A stretch of 49,809 nt of DNA. It comes from an uncultured Bacteroidia bacterium (GTDB lineage: Bacteria > Bacteroidota > Bacteroidia > Bacteroidales > UBA932). The stretch is from assembly GCA_902784435.1 (NCBI GenBank), contig CACZUR010000022.1:1-49809 (forward strand), in the 5' to 3' direction. Within the stretch, counting starts at the first letter, position 1; every line of letters starts with the position of its first letter. The notes beneath the pieces are model-generated. The model made no database searches, was not told where the DNA came from, and saw only the letters and a program-made list of their open reading frames with translations. Positions 34,825 through 40,815 of this stretch are shown one piece after another. Both the position numbers and the translations under genes were made by a program.

Positions 34825-35496
34825 ATGGATGATGTAAAAGTCATCGAAATCAAAAAGAGCATTTTCGAGGACAACGACCGTGACGCAGACAACCTGCGCG
34901 CAGACCTGAAACGCCGGGGCGTGTTTCTGCTGAACCTGATGTCGTCACCGGGCAGCGGCAAAACCACCACCCTCATTCAAACCATCAACCGCATCAAGGA
35001 CCAGGTCCGGGTGGCCGTGATGGAGGCCGATATAGACAGCAACGTAGACGCCGTCAAAATCCGGGAAGCCACCGGCATCCCCTCCATCCAGCTGCATACG
35101 GGCGGCATGTGCCACCTGGACGCGGAAATGACCCGCCAGGGCCTGGACAACGTGCCGCTCGAAGACACGGACCTGGTTATCCTGGAGAATGTCGGGAACC
35201 TGGTATGCCCGGCGGAATTTGACACCGGCGCCGTCAAGAACGCCATGATTCTGAGCGTCCCCGAAGGCCACGACAAACCCCTGAAATACCCGCTCATGTT
35301 CTCCATCTGCGACGTCGTGGTCATCAACAAGATGGACGTACTCCCCTACTTCGACTTCGACCTGGAAAAGTGCCGGGAATACGTGCGCCTGCGCAACCCC
35401 AAGGCGCAGGTCATTCCCATCTGCGCCAAGACCGGCGAGGGTGTAGACGCCTTTGCCCAATGGCTCCTGCAGGAAATCAACAACTGGAAAAACTGA
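34825..35496 (+). CDS. hypB: Nickel-insertion GTPase HypB
   Basis: A 223-residue SIMIBI-class GTPase that, with HypA, loads nickel into [NiFe] hydrogenase or other nickel enzymes. It has P-loop SSPGSGKTT (about 40-48), VMEADIDSN, the metal-binding CHLD in GGMCHLDAEM, ILENVGNLVCPAEFD with the second conserved Cys, and the guanine motif NKMD. It lacks the N-terminal CxxCGC motif and any His-rich stretch, so it is the minimal form. A degenerate -7 box (TAACTTAG, 34782-34789) lies 35 nt upstream. It is the first gene of an operon with an Fe-S/flavin oxidoreductase (6 nt gap), hypA and two membrane proteins. No hydrogenase subunit gene is present. Confidence 0.94.
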   Translation: MDDVKVIEIKKSIFEDNDRDADNLRADLKRRGVFLLNLMSSPGSGKTTTLIQTINRIKDQVRVAVMEADIDSNVDAVKIREATGIPSIQLHTGGMCHLDAEMTRQGLDNVPLEDTDLVILENVGNLVCPAEFDTGAVKNAMILSVPEGHDKPLKYPLMFSICDVVVINKMDVLPYFDFDLEKCREYVRLRNPKAQVIPICAKTGEGVDAFAQWLLQEINNWKN

Positions 35497-35502
35497 TACA
35501 TT

Positions 35503-38328
35503 ATGCCTGAGATGTCCAATAAATTTGTCCCCAAACACAAGGGGGACAAGAACCCGAATCCCAAGCTCCTGAAATTCGTGCGCCACGTCACGGACCGCAT
35601 TCCCGGCAAAATCAAGATGGATACCGACGCCCCGGAATACTGGGGCCTGGCCTGCATCTTCGAGGACGAAATGGACGCCGTAACCCGCGAAGCCGCCCTG
35701 GACCTGCTCCTGGACATGCTTCCCGGCAATTTCTTCAAGGTGAGGGAACACCGCAGCTACTACCTGCTGCACGAGTGGAACCGCCAGAAGCACTACACCC
35801 CGGACGACGCCTCCTTCGACGAGCTGCTGGACAAGCTGGCCTATTTCGGTATGCTGGAATACGACTACGGAGACAAGTACACCCAGGACGGTCCCGTGCC
35901 CGGCACTACCTATGAGCGCAAGGACCGCATCTACTGGGTGCCCATGTTCGTTCCCGGCAGCGCGGAATACACCAACATGAGCACCTACCTCATGGACAAG
36001 CATCCGGAACTGGCCATGTTCTTCGAGCGCATGACCTTCCTGCCGCTGGAGAAAATCACCCCCATGGTGCCCATGGGCGGCAGCGGCATCGGCATGCACG
36101 TGATTCCCGTAGAGAAGGCCATCAGCATGGAAAATGAGACGGCCGACATCGAGCACATCTCCTACTGGCTCAAGAAATACGAAGGCCACCTGGCAGTGGG
36201 CATCTGCAGCTGCCGCTACGGCCGCAAGAAGCTGGACGAAGGCTGCGCGGACGACTACCGCGACTGGTGCATCGGCGTGGGCGACATGGCCGAATACCTG
36301 GTAGAGACCCACCGCGGCCATTATATCACCTACGACGAGTGCATGAACATCCTCAAGATCGCAGAGGACAACGGCTTCGTACACCAGGTGACCAACATCG
36401 ACGGCGAGGGCAAGATTTTCGCCATCTGCAACTGCAATGTCAAGATTTGCAACGCCCTGCGCACGTCCCAGCTGTTCAACACGCCCAACATGAGCCGCAG
36501 CGCCTATGTGGCGGAGGTAGACCCCAAGAACTGCGTGGCCTGCGGCCGCTGCGTGGAATACTGCCCCGCCGGCGCCGTACGCCTGGGCCAGAAACTGTGC
36601 ACCAAGAACGGCCCGCAGAAGTATCCCAAGCACGAGTTGCCGGACGCCGCCAAATGGGGTCCCGAAAAATGGACGGAAGACTACCGCGACGTAAACCGCA
36701 TCAACTGCTACGAAACCGGCACCGCCCCCTGCAAGACCGCCTGCCCGGCCCACATCGCCGTCCAGGGTTACCTGAAGAAGGCGGCCGAGGGCAAATACAC
36801 CGAGGCCCTGGAGCTCATCAAGCGGGAGAATCCCTTCCCCGCCGTGTGCGGCCGCGTGTGCAACCGCCGCTGCGAGGATGCCTGTACCCGCGGTACCATC
36901 GACCAGCCCATCGCCATCGACGAAGTGAAGAAATTCATCGCGGAGCAGGACCTGAAGGCCGAAACCCGCTTTGTGCCGGAGGTGGTCATCGCCTCTTCCG
37001 TGCAGAAGCGCTGGGAAGAGAAGATTGCCATCATCGGCGGCGGCCCCGCCGGCATGAGCTGCGCCAACTACCTGGCCACCATGGGCTACAAGCCCACCGT
37101 CTTCGAGAAAAACGAAGAGCCCGGCGGCATGCTGCGCTACGGCATCCCTTCCTACAAGCTGGCCAAGGACGTGATCAAGGCCGAGATTGACATCATGAAG
37201 GAAATTGGCGTAGAGGTCCGCACCGGCGTGGAAGTGGGCAAGGATGTCACCATCGCCCAGCTGCGCGAACAGGGCTACAAGGCCTTCTACGTGGCCATCG
37301 GCTGCCAGGGCGGACGTCTGCCCGGCATTCCCGGGGAAACCCTTCCGGGTACCACCACGGCCATCGACTTCCTGCACGGTGCCAACTGCGGCGACCAGAC
37401 GGTCTCCGGCAAGGTGGTGGTGGTAGGCGGCGGCAACGTGGCCATCGACGCAGCCCGCGTGGCCCTGCGCAGCGGCGCCTCGTCCGTGACCATGCTTTCG
37501 CTGGAGACAGAGGACATCATGCCCGCCAGCCTGGAAGAACGCACGGAAGCCCGCGAGGACGGCGTTATCCTGAACCCCGGCTGGGGCCCGAAGGAAGTGC
37601 TGGGCGACGGCAAGGTCTCCGGCATCGTCTTCAAAAAGTGCACCTCCGTGTTCAACGCAGAGCACAAGTTCGCCCCGGAATACGATGAGTCTCAGCTTAT
37701 TACGCTGGAGGCCGACCTGGTCATCTTCGCCATCGGCCAGACGGTCATCCTCAAGGACCTGCTCAAGGATACGAAGGTAGAATTCTTCCGCGGCGTATAT
37801 CCCGTGGCCGACAAACTCACCTACCAGACGGCAGAGCCCGACATCTTCGTGGGCGGCGACTGCTTCACCGGCCCCAAGTTCGCCATCGACGCCATCGCCG
37901 CGGGCAAGGAGGCCGCCGAAAGCCTGCACCGCTTCGTGCAGCACGGCCACATGACCATCGGCCGCAACCGCCGGCAGTTCGTGGAACTGGACAAGCAGGA
38001 TATCCTGGTGGAAAGCTATGACAACGGCTCGCGCCAGGCCCCCGGCGTGGTGCCCGTGAAGAGCAAGTTCGCGGAGTATCACGGCACGCTCACCGAGGAG
38101 CAGGTACGCAGGGAAACCGCCCGCTGCCTGAGCTGCGGCGCATCCGTCGTGGACGAGAACAAGTGCATCGGCTGCGGCATCTGCACCACCAAGTGCGCCT
38201 TCGATGCCATCCACCTGCACCGCGTGCACCCGGAAGCTTCGGTCATGCGCACCTCCGAAGACAAGTTCTCCGGCATTCTCCCGTACATGGTCAAACGCAC
38301 CGGAAAAATCCTGTTCAAAAAGAAATAA
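35503..38328 (+). CDS. Multidomain Fe-S/FAD NAD(P)H oxidoreductase, GltD-like
   Basis: 941 residues in three parts. Residues 1-335: a Cys-rich ferredoxin-type domain of anaerobes with GICSCRYGRKKLDEGC (about 232), DWCIGVGDMAEYLVETHRGH, and CNCNVKIC (about 308). Then a 4Fe-4S motif CVACGRCVEYCPAGA (about 342). From about 400 a GltD-like module: Cys-rich start CKTACPAHIAVQGYL...CGRVCNRRCEDAC, FAD site IIGGGPAGMSC (about 509), NAD(P)H site VVVGGGNVAIDAA (about 642), and GGDCFTGP before the C-terminus. A last ferredoxin domain CIGCGICTTKCAFDAI lies near 887. It can move electrons between NAD(P)H, FAD and several clusters in the cytosol. Placement between hypB and hypA ties it to a nickel enzyme, which one is unknown. 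No glutamate synthase large subunit is nearby. Confidence 0.88.
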   Translation: MPEMSNKFVPKHKGDKNPNPKLLKFVRHVTDRIPGKIKMDTDAPEYWGLACIFEDEMDAVTREAALDLLLDMLPGNFFKVREHRSYYLLHEWNRQKHYTPDDASFDELLDKLAYFGMLEYDYGDKYTQDGPVPGTTYERKDRIYWVPMFVPGSAEYTNMSTYLMDKHPELAMFFERMTFLPLEKITPMVPMGGSGIGMHVIPVEKAISMENETADIEHISYWLKKYEGHLAVGICSCRYGRKKLDEGCADDYRDWCIGVGDMAEYLVETHRGHYITYDECMNILKIAEDNGFVHQVTNIDGEGKIFAICNCNVKICNALRTSQLFNTPNMSRSAYVAEVDPKNCVACGRCVEYCPAGAVRLGQKLCTKNGPQKYPKHELPDAAKWGPEKWTEDYRDVNRINCYETGTAPCKTACPAHIAVQGYLKKAAEGKYTEALELIKRENPFPAVCGRVCNRRCEDACTRGTIDQPIAIDEVKKFIAEQDLKAETRFVPEVVIASSVQKRWEEKIAIIGGGPAGMSCANYLATMGYKPTVFEKNEEPGGMLRYGIPSYKLAKDVIKAEIDIMKEIGVEVRTGVEVGKDVTIAQLREQGYKAFYVAIGCQGGRLPGIPGETLPGTTTAIDFLHGANCGDQTVSGKVVVVGGGNVAIDAARVALRSGASSVTMLSLETEDIMPASLEERTEAREDGVILNPGWGPKEVLGDGKVSGIVFKKCTSVFNAEHKFAPEYDESQLITLEADLVIFAIGQTVILKDLLKDTKVEFFRGVYPVADKLTYQTAEPDIFVGGDCFTGPKFAIDAIAAGKEAAESLHRFVQHGHMTIGRNRRQFVELDKQDILVESYDNGSRQAPGVVPVKSKFAEYHGTLTEEQVRRETARCLSCGASVVDENKCIGCGICTTKCAFDAIHLHRVHPEASVMRTSEDKFSGILPYMVKRTGKILFKKK

Positions 38329-38334
38329 CCCTTC

Positions 38335-38386
38335 GCGGACGAAAACTTTTTCTACCCCACAAGGGGGAGCGAAAAGTTTTGTCCGC
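38335..38386 (+). other. Long hairpin between the oxidoreductase and hypA genes
   Basis: GCGGACGAAAACTTTTTC (38335-38352) pairs with GCGAAAAGTTTTGTCCGC (38369-38386) with one bulge. It fills most of the 73-bp gap and is not followed by a T-run, so it is not a classic terminator. A role in mRNA processing, stability or attenuation inside the operon is possible. Confidence 0.55.
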
Positions 38387-38401
38387 TTCGGCCAATCATT
38401 T

Positions 38402-38752
38402 ATGCACGAATTAGGCATTGTGTTTTACATCATCCGGGACGTCAAAAAGGCGGCTCAGGAGAATGGCGTGCAGAAGGTGTCCGGGGTGGTGATGAACATC
38501 GGAGAGGTGTCTACCATCGTGCCGGAGTATCTCACGGACTGCTGGCGGTGGGCGGCGGACAAGGAAGATCTGCTCAGGGGCTGCGCGCTCAAGTGCAACA
38601 TCGTTCCGGCCGTTACTTACTGCGAGGACTGCGGGGCGGAATATGGGACCGTCCAATATGGAAAGGTCTGTCCCCGCTGCGGCAGCGAAAACACGTATCT
38701 CATTCGTGGCAACGAAGTGGAAATCAAAGAAATAGAAGTACCTAACAATTAA
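38402..38752 (+). CDS. hypA: Nickel metallochaperone HypA
   Basis: A 116-residue protein starting MHELGIV, the conserved M-H-E nickel site with His2, followed by the HypA fold (VSGVVMNIGEVSTIVPEYL). The zinc site is Cys74/77 and Cys90/93 (CEDC...CPRC). The length is the family norm (about 113-117). It delivers nickel with HypB to hydrogenase or, in some bacteria, to urease and other nickel enzymes. It is the third gene of the operon, separated from the oxidoreductase gene by a hairpin, and a small membrane protein gene starts 4 nt later. The start is fixed by the invariant MHE. Confidence 0.95.
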   Translation: MHELGIVFYIIRDVKKAAQENGVQKVSGVVMNIGEVSTIVPEYLTDCWRWAADKEDLLRGCALKCNIVPAVTYCEDCGAEYGTVQYGKVCPRCGSENTYLIRGNEVEIKEIEVPNN

Positions 38753-38756
38753 GAAT

Positions 38757-39101
38757 ATGGCTTGTTTCATAGCACCCCTGGTGCAGGCTGTAGCCGTTAC
38801 CGCCCTGCGCAAATCCCAATCGGCCGCCATCCGGAATCCGGAGGCCTCGCCGTTCCTGCATTACCTTCCGGATCTGGAGAAGATGCTCTGGGGCGGAACG
38901 CTCATGCTCATCGTAGACCACATCATCAACGGGGAACTCACCTGGCGTTTCCCCTTCTTCACGGCGCTGGGAGAAACCGGCGGCTGGAGTGTCATGCTCA
39001 AGGAAATATTGGTTGTGGGCGTCCCCATGGCCGCCGTGCTCACGCTGGCCTGGGCCGTGTGGGTGGTGGCCAGGAGCCGTCGGAGTGTTTCTGCAAAGTA
39101 A
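38757..39101 (+). CDS. Small membrane protein of the hypAB operon
   Basis: 114 residues; family not recognised. MACFIAPLVQAVAVTAL may be a short first hydrophobic segment. Clear helices follow at about 43-57 (LWGGTLMLIVDHIIN) and 84-106 (ILVVGVPMAAVLTLAWAVWVVARS), with a basic C-terminus RSRRSVSAK. It starts 4 nt after hypA and precedes the larger membrane protein by 29 nt, so the two probably form one membrane complex. The loop ALRKSQSAAIRNPEASPF is polar and would be cytoplasmic by the positive-inside rule. No metal-binding Cys/His cluster is apparent. Confidence 0.75.
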   Translation: MACFIAPLVQAVAVTALRKSQSAAIRNPEASPFLHYLPDLEKMLWGGTLMLIVDHIINGELTWRFPFFTALGETGGWSVMLKEILVVGVPMAAVLTLAWAVWVVARSRRSVSAK

Positions 39102-39130
39102 TTATCATTCAATAACTTAAACCTTTTATT

Positions 39131-40177
39131 ATGTTCTTTCAAGTTTATGGGGCTCATGCCCTGTCTCAATGGGGAATGCTCATCGTGGTCCTGCTGGGCC
39201 TGATCCTCCTCAATGAATTTGCCCGTCGCACCAAACTGGGCGGCATCATTACGTTCCTGGTGGTCCCGGTAGCCCTTACCGCTTACTTCCTGGCCATCTG
39301 GATCGGCGTACGCAACGGTGCCCAGTGGGCGCTGGAGAACCAGACGCACATTTACATGCAGGGCTGGTTCCACTATGCCAAACTGTATGCTGCCACGGCC
39401 GGGTGTATCGGCTTCATGATGATCAAGTACAAGTGGGGCGTCGGTGCCAAGCACTGGTTCAAGCCCTTCCCCTTCATCATCGTAGGCATCAACATCCTCA
39501 TCGCCTGTGTGTCGGACTTCGAGAGTGCCGTCATGGGCTGGAACAAGTGGTGGCTCACCTCCGAAGGCGTATGGCAGTATGGCGGCTGGCACAATGTGTT
39601 CAACGGCGTGGCCGGTCTCATCAACATCTTCTGTATGACCGCCTGGTGGAACGTATATCCTTCCAAGGACAAGAAAGACATGATCTGGGCCGACATGACC
39701 TGGGTGTACATCCTGGCCTATGACGTCTGGAACTTCGCCTACACTTACAACTGCCTGCCTACGCACAGCTGGTACTGCGGTATCGCCCTGCTGGCCGCTC
39801 CCACCGTGGCCGCCCTCCTGTGGAACCGCGGCGGCTGGATCCAGAACCGCGCCAACACCCTGGCCATCTGGTGCATGTTCGCCCAGGTATTCCCCCTGTT
39901 CCAGGAAACCCCCGAAGGCGTGGACACCATCAGCAAGCTGTATGAGGCTGCCGGCGGCGAAGCTGCCGTAGTGGGCACCACCGTAGATCCTTCCGTCGTG
40001 GCCGCCAATCCCACGATGATGCTCGTCATCAGCGCCCTTGCCCTGGTCATCAACGTGGTCACCATCGGCTATATCGCTGCCCAGGCCAAGAAACGCCACA
40101 TCAACCCCTACAAGGAAGATGTGTTCGTGTCCCAGCAGTACTACAAGGACTCCATGGCCCGCGCCGATGTGAGCTAA
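39131..40177 (+). CDS. Polytopic membrane protein, DUF5692-like, of the hypAB operon
   Basis: 348 residues with about eight hydrophobic helices, rich in Trp/Tyr at the membrane borders (YMQGWFHYAKLYAATAGCIGF, MTAWWNVYPS, WVYILAYDVWNFAYTYNCLPTHSWYCGIALL). The text matches my recollection of DUF5692, a family without known function; I could not verify this. The DVWNFAYTYN segment with acidic and aromatic residues in a helix looks conserved-type and could line a site for an ion, quinone or metal. There is no CxxC haem motif. It is the last gene of the hypB-oxidoreductase-hypA operon; a strong terminator follows at 40237-40272. Candidates are a transporter or the membrane half of a redox complex. 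Confidence 0.72.
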   Translation: MFFQVYGAHALSQWGMLIVVLLGLILLNEFARRTKLGGIITFLVVPVALTAYFLAIWIGVRNGAQWALENQTHIYMQGWFHYAKLYAATAGCIGFMMIKYKWGVGAKHWFKPFPFIIVGINILIACVSDFESAVMGWNKWWLTSEGVWQYGGWHNVFNGVAGLINIFCMTAWWNVYPSKDKKDMIWADMTWVYILAYDVWNFAYTYNCLPTHSWYCGIALLAAPTVAALLWNRGGWIQNRANTLAIWCMFAQVFPLFQETPEGVDTISKLYEAAGGEAAVVGTTVDPSVVAANPTMMLVISALALVINVVTIGYIAAQAKKRHINPYKEDVFVSQQYYKDSMARADVS

Positions 40178-40218: not shown

Positions 40219-40815
40219 TTAGAACTTTCTGATTTTGACGCCCGTGAACAAACCGCGGGCGTCTCTTTTTTTGAAGGTGAACGCCCCGGTCTCGTGACCG
40301 TCTGCCGGAGAGATGAGAAAGTAGTGGCCGTCCCGGCTGCCCCAGAAATCCGTCACCTCCTGCGGGGTGTCCAGCCGGCTGCCGCGGCCGAATTCCTTAT
40401 AGCGGCGCTCCGTAAGGATGTTGCCGTCCTCGTCCATGAGGGCATAGCCTTCCCCGACCAGTCCCACAATGAGCCGATGCTCCGCGGGGCCGGCGCCCAT
40501 ATGGATTTCGGCATAATTGAGCTTGCGTTCCGTGGCCTTGCTGCCGTCCGGCAGGAACAGGGTCACCGACTGGCCCGAGCCCCGTTTCCGGGCGGCCAGG
40601 ATCAGGCGGAACTGCTCGGGCGTGCCGGGGACTTCCGCCGACCAGATGCGCTGGTATTCACAGGGGATGACGAGCCGCCCCAGGGTGTCTTTCACGCCCA
40701 GGTTACCGGACTTCTGGTCCCGGACAATCTCCAACTGGTTGTGGTAAAAGGACTGTGCGCCCGCCTGGAAAAGGACGGAGAGCGAAAGGAGCAGCAGAAG
40801 GCCTATGCGTTTCAT
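40219..40815 (-). CDS. Exported WG-repeat-like protein, short paralogue
   Basis: 198 residues with signal peptide MKRIGLLLLLSLSVLFQAGAQ. GVKDTLGRLVIPCEYQRI and YALMDEDGNILTERRYKEF are WG-repeat-like units (strand, small residue, DxxG, I/L-x-P-x-x-Y). It shares long blocks with the 318-residue protein at 44304-45260: LFLPDGSKATERKLNYAEIHMGAGPAEHRLIV against LFLPSGKRATDIKLDYARIEMGEGPDEHRLIV. The pair are paralogues flanking three genes on the opposite strand. The plus-strand terminator of the hypAB operon is embedded in its last codons. Function unknown. Confidence 0.8.
   Translation of the reverse strand: MKRIGLLLLLSLSVLFQAGAQSFYHNQLEIVRDQKSGNLGVKDTLGRLVIPCEYQRIWSAEVPGTPEQFRLILAARKRGSGQSVTLFLPDGSKATERKLNYAEIHMGAGPAEHRLIVGLVGEGYALMDEDGNILTERRYKEFGRGSRLDTPQEVTDFWGSRDGHYFLISPADGHETGAFTFKKRDARGLFTGVKIRKF
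40237..40272 (+). terminator. Intrinsic terminator of the hypAB operon, inside a convergent gene
   Basis: Stem GACGCCCG / CGGGCGTC (40237-40244 with 40256-40263), 11-base loop, then TCTTTTTTT. It lies 59 nt after the stop at 40177 on the plus strand and within the final coding bases of the minus-strand gene 40219-40815. Confidence 0.85.

Follow-up and report, generated by a model that had tools for sequence, protein, structure and literature searches.

A conserved cassette of ruminant-gut Bacteroidales joins the nickel chaperones HypA and HypB to an IsrA-like oxidoreductase and membrane proteins

The window analysed here, a stretch of 49,809 nucleotides from an uncultured Bacteroidia bacterium (contig CACZUR010000022.1 of assembly GCA_902784435.1; Bacteroidales, UBA932), carries five genes arranged head to tail on the plus strand at positions 34825-40177: hypB, an oxidoreductase gene, hypA and the genes of a small membrane protein and a DUF5692 protein. 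Open reading frames and profile matches confirmed that all five are present in the order given in the initial annotation of this DNA. The features of the locus are as follows:

34825..35496, + strand: hypB, nickel-binding GTPase of the short type, 223 aa (TIGR00073, 245 bits, cut-off 121)
35503..38328, + strand: isrA-like oxidoreductase, 941 aa (Fer4, Fer4_20, Pyr_redox_2, C-terminal ferredoxin site)
36205..36450, + strand: codons of the seven-cysteine motif (C235-x-C237, C248, C256, C309-x-C311, C316), the place of the proposed IsrA cluster V
38402..38752, + strand: hypA, nickel metallochaperone, from the MHE start (H2/E3 nickel site, CxxC...CxxC zinc site)
38757..39101, + strand: small membrane protein, 114 aa, an open reading frame of no known family
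39131..40177, + strand: DUF5692 integral membrane protein, 348 aa (PF18948, 426.5 bits, cut-off 27)
40237..40263, + strand: terminator-like hairpin with a T run, 10 pairs (8 G-C), the best of six matches

The genes are separated by 6, 73, 4 and 29 bases in gene order. The hypB product has no N-terminal cysteine cluster and its metal motif is C96-H97. HypA scores 107 bits with PF01155 (cut-off 28.9) and 74 bits with TIGR00100, which is below the cut-off of 88; we take a longer open frame of hypA from 38204, which overlaps the preceding gene, for a start-codon artefact. At E 0.001, neither Pfam nor NCBIfam offered a match to the small membrane protein. Of the strong terminator proposed earlier, the hairpin of 10 pairs with its T run was found, but such matches are as frequent in shuffled sequence (six sites in the region versus a mean of 5.6), so that the case for this hairpin comes from its position and quality. 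A convergent open frame on the minus strand (window 40219-40815) ends near the hairpin, which may serve both this frame and the cassette.

Four Fe-S/cysteine regions were found in the 941-residue oxidoreductase instead of the three annotated initially: the seven-cysteine motif (residues 235-316), a ferredoxin site (344-354), a GltD-type region (402-461) and a C-terminal region (875-898). The N-terminal part consists of a winged-helix-like section, the seven-cysteine motif with its two CxC motifs (C235xC237 and C309xC311, plus C248, C256 and C316) and the first ferredoxin site. Fer4_20 and the FAD/NAD(P)H core occupy residues about 400-815 and are flanked by ferredoxin-type sites on both sides (C344-C354 before, C888-C898 after). 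The domain matches thus bear out the earlier picture of an NAD(P)H/Fe-S redox core with membrane partners. While the core resembles that of NfnB, GltD and dihydropyrimidine dehydrogenase, the oxidoreductase differs from these proteins by an extra 340 N-terminal residues with the seven-cysteine site, by an extra C-terminal ferredoxin site and by having no partner subunit in the cassette.

An enzyme of this kind has already been published. PMC10134865 describes IsrA, the putative isoprene reductase of Acetobacterium wieringae, as a protein of 901 residues with a GltD-like core, ferredoxin sites on both sides of it and six clustered N-terminal cysteines with two CxC motifs, named cluster V. Isoprene induces IsrA together with HypA, HypB and a ferredoxin, the A. 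wieringae genome is reported to be without [NiFe]-hydrogenase and hypCDEF, and 988 IsrA homologues lie near HypA in 73%, near HypB in 56% and near DUF5692 in 40% of cases, from which source also comes the proposal that IsrA is a nickel client and cluster V a potential nickel site (PMC10134865). The window oxidoreductase matches the published description as a flavoprotein of about 900 residues with an N-terminal cysteine site holding two CxC motifs, with ferredoxin sites flanking a GltD-like core and with hypA and hypB adjacent, an adjacency that is common but not universal across the IsrA family, clade 9 of the published tree; no [NiFe]-hydrogenase is reported in A. wieringae and none was found in the cassette genomes. 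In contrast to the isr operon, the window cassette has one HypA instead of two, lacks a separate 4Fe-4S ferredoxin gene, includes DUF5692 and the small membrane protein, follows a different gene order and resides in a ruminant-gut Bacteroidales host. Hence, the puzzle raised by the initial annotation is largely a published one, and what is new here is the five-gene version of ruminant-gut Bacteroidales, the signs of its lateral spread and a finding that speaks against the nickel site as published. Given its IsrA-type architecture and the published HypA/HypB linkage, the oxidoreductase is the first candidate for the nickel client; the unrecognised, unlinked enzyme suggested earlier for this role finds no support. 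The literature examined, part of it in excerpt, yielded no report of nickel in an IsrA homologue.

To assess conservation, a single contig scan was performed with the N-terminal 366 residues of the oxidoreductase as query. It yielded 163 relatives, and the 80 best were retained for analysis; because two of them, L051 and L068, have the same assembly prefix, they count as 80 loci rather than 80 genomes. Among these best 80 of 163, the taxon labels read Bacteroidales, Bacteroidia or Paludibacteraceae in 79 cases and 'bacterium F082' in one, while the habitat labels name a ruminant host or stomach part in 28, are RUG labels (presumably for rumen uncultured genome) in 38 more and give no habitat in 14. 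Five-gene order and strand are kept in 59 of the best 80 relatives (60 of 81 before removal of L033, a duplicate of L040). A further nine lack the small membrane gene only, ten are cut by a contig or locus end and two are exceptions: L085 has no DUF5692 match in its 17-kb locus, and L093 contains isrA and hypB, the genes after isrA being missing from the locus. Provided that G613:C47 is the same contig, hypA of L093 seems to be located some 14 kb farther along. Median gaps across the loci are 22, 8, 26 and 42 bases in gene order. Flanks vary: in a count over 81 sequences (the 80 loci and the window, with crude ORF calls and clustering and many short flanks), no neighbour family recurred in more than six once frames overlapping the cassette were excluded, and nothing recurrent pointed toward fatty-acid or terpene metabolism. 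The tandem is therefore conserved well beyond chance and the five genes are a unit, their order being kept while the flanks vary. This agrees with the single function proposed for them earlier and answers the suggestion to look for their order in other genomes. Within the 59 loci, some genes of the cassette are spaced apart by about 0.6-2.8 kb of unassigned sequence in L086, L112 and L115, with the order kept, and the DUF5692 match falls into several pieces at L117:11328-12008 and L057:11638-12630, where the gene is broken or misassembled.

Several observations point towards lateral spread. Near-identical IsrA (at least 92% over the N-terminal part) was found in two of 295 order-sample genomes, namely the window genome and G494 from another family, the remaining 37 matching genomes having distant or weak matches only; DUF5692 exceeded its cut-off in one of 296 phylum-sample genomes, the window's own. 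G303, a 100% complete genome of the same genus as the window, gave no IsrA or HypA match, and strong IsrA matches in the family of G494 were restricted to 26 of 173 genomes, all of one genus. IsrA was more alike than RpoB in 202 of 210 genome pairs (median identity 87.5% versus 68.5%, minimum 83.8% versus 61.6%; 21 genomes with RpoB found of 28 searched, G303 standing in for the window genome), a contrast inflated by the selection of loci for their high IsrA identity (best 80 of 163). Vertical inheritance may account for some of this, as the two identities correlate (Spearman 0.47), but RpoB identities as low as 62% beside IsrA identities above 83% are hard to explain without lateral spread. 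A four-gene form, hypB-isrA-hypA-DUF5692, occurs in Bacillota on a Subdoligranulum variabile TSDC17.2-1.1 record labelled plasmid, with identities of 70, 62, 53 and 56%, respectively. In a HypA tree of 104 proteins (115 columns, bootstrap not settled), the cassette group, which includes Subdoligranulum, was separated at 100/100 support from 30 other Bacteroidales HypA, taken from the 30 best loci of the order search; the Bacillota HypA in this tree came from the cassette alone.

We then turn to the site at which nickel might be bound. All seven cysteines of the N-terminal motif are invariant in 77 of 77 IsrA-like proteins. They also align in 15 of 15 stand-alone paralogues (L005-L019; open frames of 347-436 residues in the order sample with 24-30% identity to the N-terminal region), 13 of which match one spacing pattern as well. 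No hypA or hypB match was found in the four paralogue loci checked with 14-19 kb of sequence, and no HypA match in four of the source genomes, G312 (70% complete), G549 (78%), G432 (99%) and G550 (98%). As the seven-cysteine site is present without HypA, it cannot alone be a HypA-dependent feature or mark a HypA-loaded nickel site, which runs against the simple form of the published idea of cluster V as nickel site. Three histidines, H199, H218 and H273, occur in all 77 of the 77 IsrA-like proteins but in none of the 15 paralogues, which usually have Arg or Lys there; judged from these two sets of proteins, they are candidate extra nickel ligands. The stand-alone proteins are apparently an uncharacterised Fe-S family in Bacteroidales. 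One example, L008:1234-2523, combines the same seven-cysteine motif with ferredoxin sites, only ferredoxin families passing the cut-offs in the L008 scan, and a weaker relative occurs in Cetobacterium (L172).

Could the reductase then be an ordinary Fe-S flavoprotein without nickel, with HypA and HypB supplying another metal, assisting its folding or tuning its activity to metal supply? We regard this as a real possibility, albeit one on the unlikely side. It would account for the seven-cysteine site of paralogues without HypA linkage, for the incomplete association of IsrA homologues with HypA (73%) and HypB (56%) given in PMC10134865 and for the sub-threshold TIGR00100 score of the window HypA. 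However, both chaperones retain the nickel-site residues as their roles are given in that source (PMC10134865): H2, E3 and the two CxxC motifs (C74, C77, C90, C93) are present in 74 of 74 HypA sequences, and C96 and H97 in 80 of 80 HypB sequences, C128, presumably the second CHXnC cysteine, being found in 79 of 80, one a truncated row. Moreover, HypA was found in all 36 distinct cassette genomes, which are the window genome, G494 and 34 genomes reached via loci picked from the 80, all of them drafts; it is the sole copy over the cut-off in 35 of them, while G592 has two (G588 repeats G494). HypA itself is widespread in the order, exceeding the cut-off in 103 of 295 genomes and giving any match in 117, so its presence is not special; the company of its gene is.

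The membrane proteins offer another potential centre. In the small membrane protein, R18, E41, W45, D54, H55, E60 and W99 are present in 63 of 63 sequences. Its gene gave no match in 10 of 72 sequences having both hypA and DUF5692, which are spaced there by 16-62 bases, so that the core of the cassette is hypB-isrA-hypA-DUF5692 and the small protein is accessory. The predicted model of DUF5692 is mostly helical (mean pLDDT 64), and a fold search with it was uninformative, giving no helpful match. A DUF5692 gene on a Latilactobacillus curvatus plasmid (L119:8926-9855) has no hypA, hypB or isrA match in 18.8 kb; by its gene context, DUF5692 may also work alone. That DUF5692 and the small membrane protein form the catalytic nickel or redox centre, with the flavoprotein merely feeding electrons, would fit the conservation of DUF5692, in which H81, D188, H212 and W186 are among the residues present in 68 of 68 sequences and 93 positions are identical across the window, Subdoligranulum and Latilactobacillus copies. 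We nevertheless consider it improbable, given that DUF5692 lies near only 40% of IsrA homologues (PMC10134865), that the Latilactobacillus gene stands by itself and that the cassette at L085 has no DUF5692 match. A membrane protein as nickel client, as had also been suggested initially, is likewise the weaker choice, with the small protein missing in 10 of 72 sequences and a lone DUF5692 on the Latilactobacillus plasmid.

The cassette genomes were searched for other nickel enzymes. Together with G303, 37 genomes were covered, and HypD, the [NiFe] large subunit and urease over the cut-off were each found in none of them (of HypC to HypF, HypD was the one searched); the cassette thus differs from a [NiFe]-hydrogenase maturation locus, with which it shares HypA and HypB by family and metal-site residues, in having neither HypD nor a hydrogenase match in 36 of 36 draft cassette genomes. 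Among these 36, LarA exceeded the cut-off in two and the prismane/CODH family in eight, and 26, including the window genome, matched none of the five families (HypD, [NiFe], urease, LarA, prismane/CODH). Of the eight prismane matches, six belong to frames 557-579 aa long, which we take to be the size of a hybrid-cluster protein rather than of CODH. Absence in the window genome alone would be weak evidence, this genome being 82.6% complete and lacking an RpoB match. The earlier description of nickel chaperones without a hydrogenase therefore holds across the cassette genomes, and with the linkage conserved, a hypAB pair merely displaced from a hydrogenase locus is not what was found. That the client of HypA and HypB is an unlinked nickel enzyme encoded elsewhere in the genome, and that they adjoin the reductase only incidentally, is very unlikely: LarA or prismane/CODH matches in 10 of 36 genomes, a search that left out glyoxalase I, ARD and Ni-SOD, and the draft state of the genomes (the window's included) speak for it, but 26 of 36 genomes match no tested family, most prismane matches have the size assumed for hybrid-cluster proteins and the linkage stays while the flanks change.

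What, then, might the cassette do? We see about an even chance that it serves one IsrA-type (putative isoprene/diene) reductase, which would be nickel-loaded and membrane-assisted and hydrogenate a C=C bond of a lipophilic substrate. The role of the cassette is probably the saturation of carbon-carbon double bonds and not service to a hydrogenase. Following the domains and the IsrA model in PMC10134865, NAD(P)H would reduce FAD in the GltD/NfnB-like core, and the [4Fe-4S] chain would carry the electrons on to the seven-cysteine site in the N-terminal part; there, a C=C bond of a lipophilic compound, non-activated and probably conjugated, would be hydrogenated. HypB, as GTPase, and HypA would insert nickel into the oxidoreductase; the most likely place is at or next to the seven-cysteine site, with the IsrA-specific H199, H218 and H273 assisting. 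DUF5692, usually with the small membrane protein, may dock the reductase at the membrane or hand over the hydrophobic substrate, a role suggested by its membrane helices and its linkage; we infer this role as well as the nickel and the substrate class. In ruminant-gut Bacteroidales, the reaction might provide an electron sink or protect the cells against toxic unsaturated lipids.

By analogy with IsrA, the substrate is probably a conjugated diene, and a 2025 announcement calls the isr cluster a 'putative diene reductase cluster' (PMC12509576). The exact substrate is not transferable, since IsrA itself is only a putative isoprene reductase and the strains that carry other Acetobacterium homologues (47-49% identical) do not reduce isoprene (PMC10134865). 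The same paper mentions an oleate hydratase gene adjoining an IsrA homologue in A. woodii and A. fimetarium. A natural substrate would be at hand in rumen biohydrogenation, as the conversion of conjugated linoleic acid to vaccenic acid by the Butyrivibrio CLA reductase (PMC12254105) is the same kind of step. According to a 2015 genomic study, a search for the Butyrivibrio fatty acid oxidoreductase was not possible because no family database contained it, although a sequence had been reported (PMC4478896). No direct link between cassette and fatty acids was found among the flank families or in the literature examined. The bolder version of our reading, a laterally spread, membrane-docked, nickel-loaded Fe-S/flavin enzyme acting on conjugated dienes, for example conjugated linoleic acid or plant isoprenoids, as a reductase, and thus both a new class of nickel enzyme and a missing enzyme of rumen biohydrogenation outside Butyrivibrio, is unlikely to hold as a whole.

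With a conserved cassette, 26 of 36 genomes without a match to the tested nickel enzymes and three histidines confined to IsrA-like proteins, the question is directly testable. Hydrogenation of unsaturated plant lipids in the rumen influences the fat of milk and meat and consumes hydrogen that could otherwise be turned into methane. If the reductase carries nickel, it would extend the kinds of HypA/HypB clients beyond hydrogenase and urease and would be a new nickel enzyme for the hydrogenation of plain C=C bonds.
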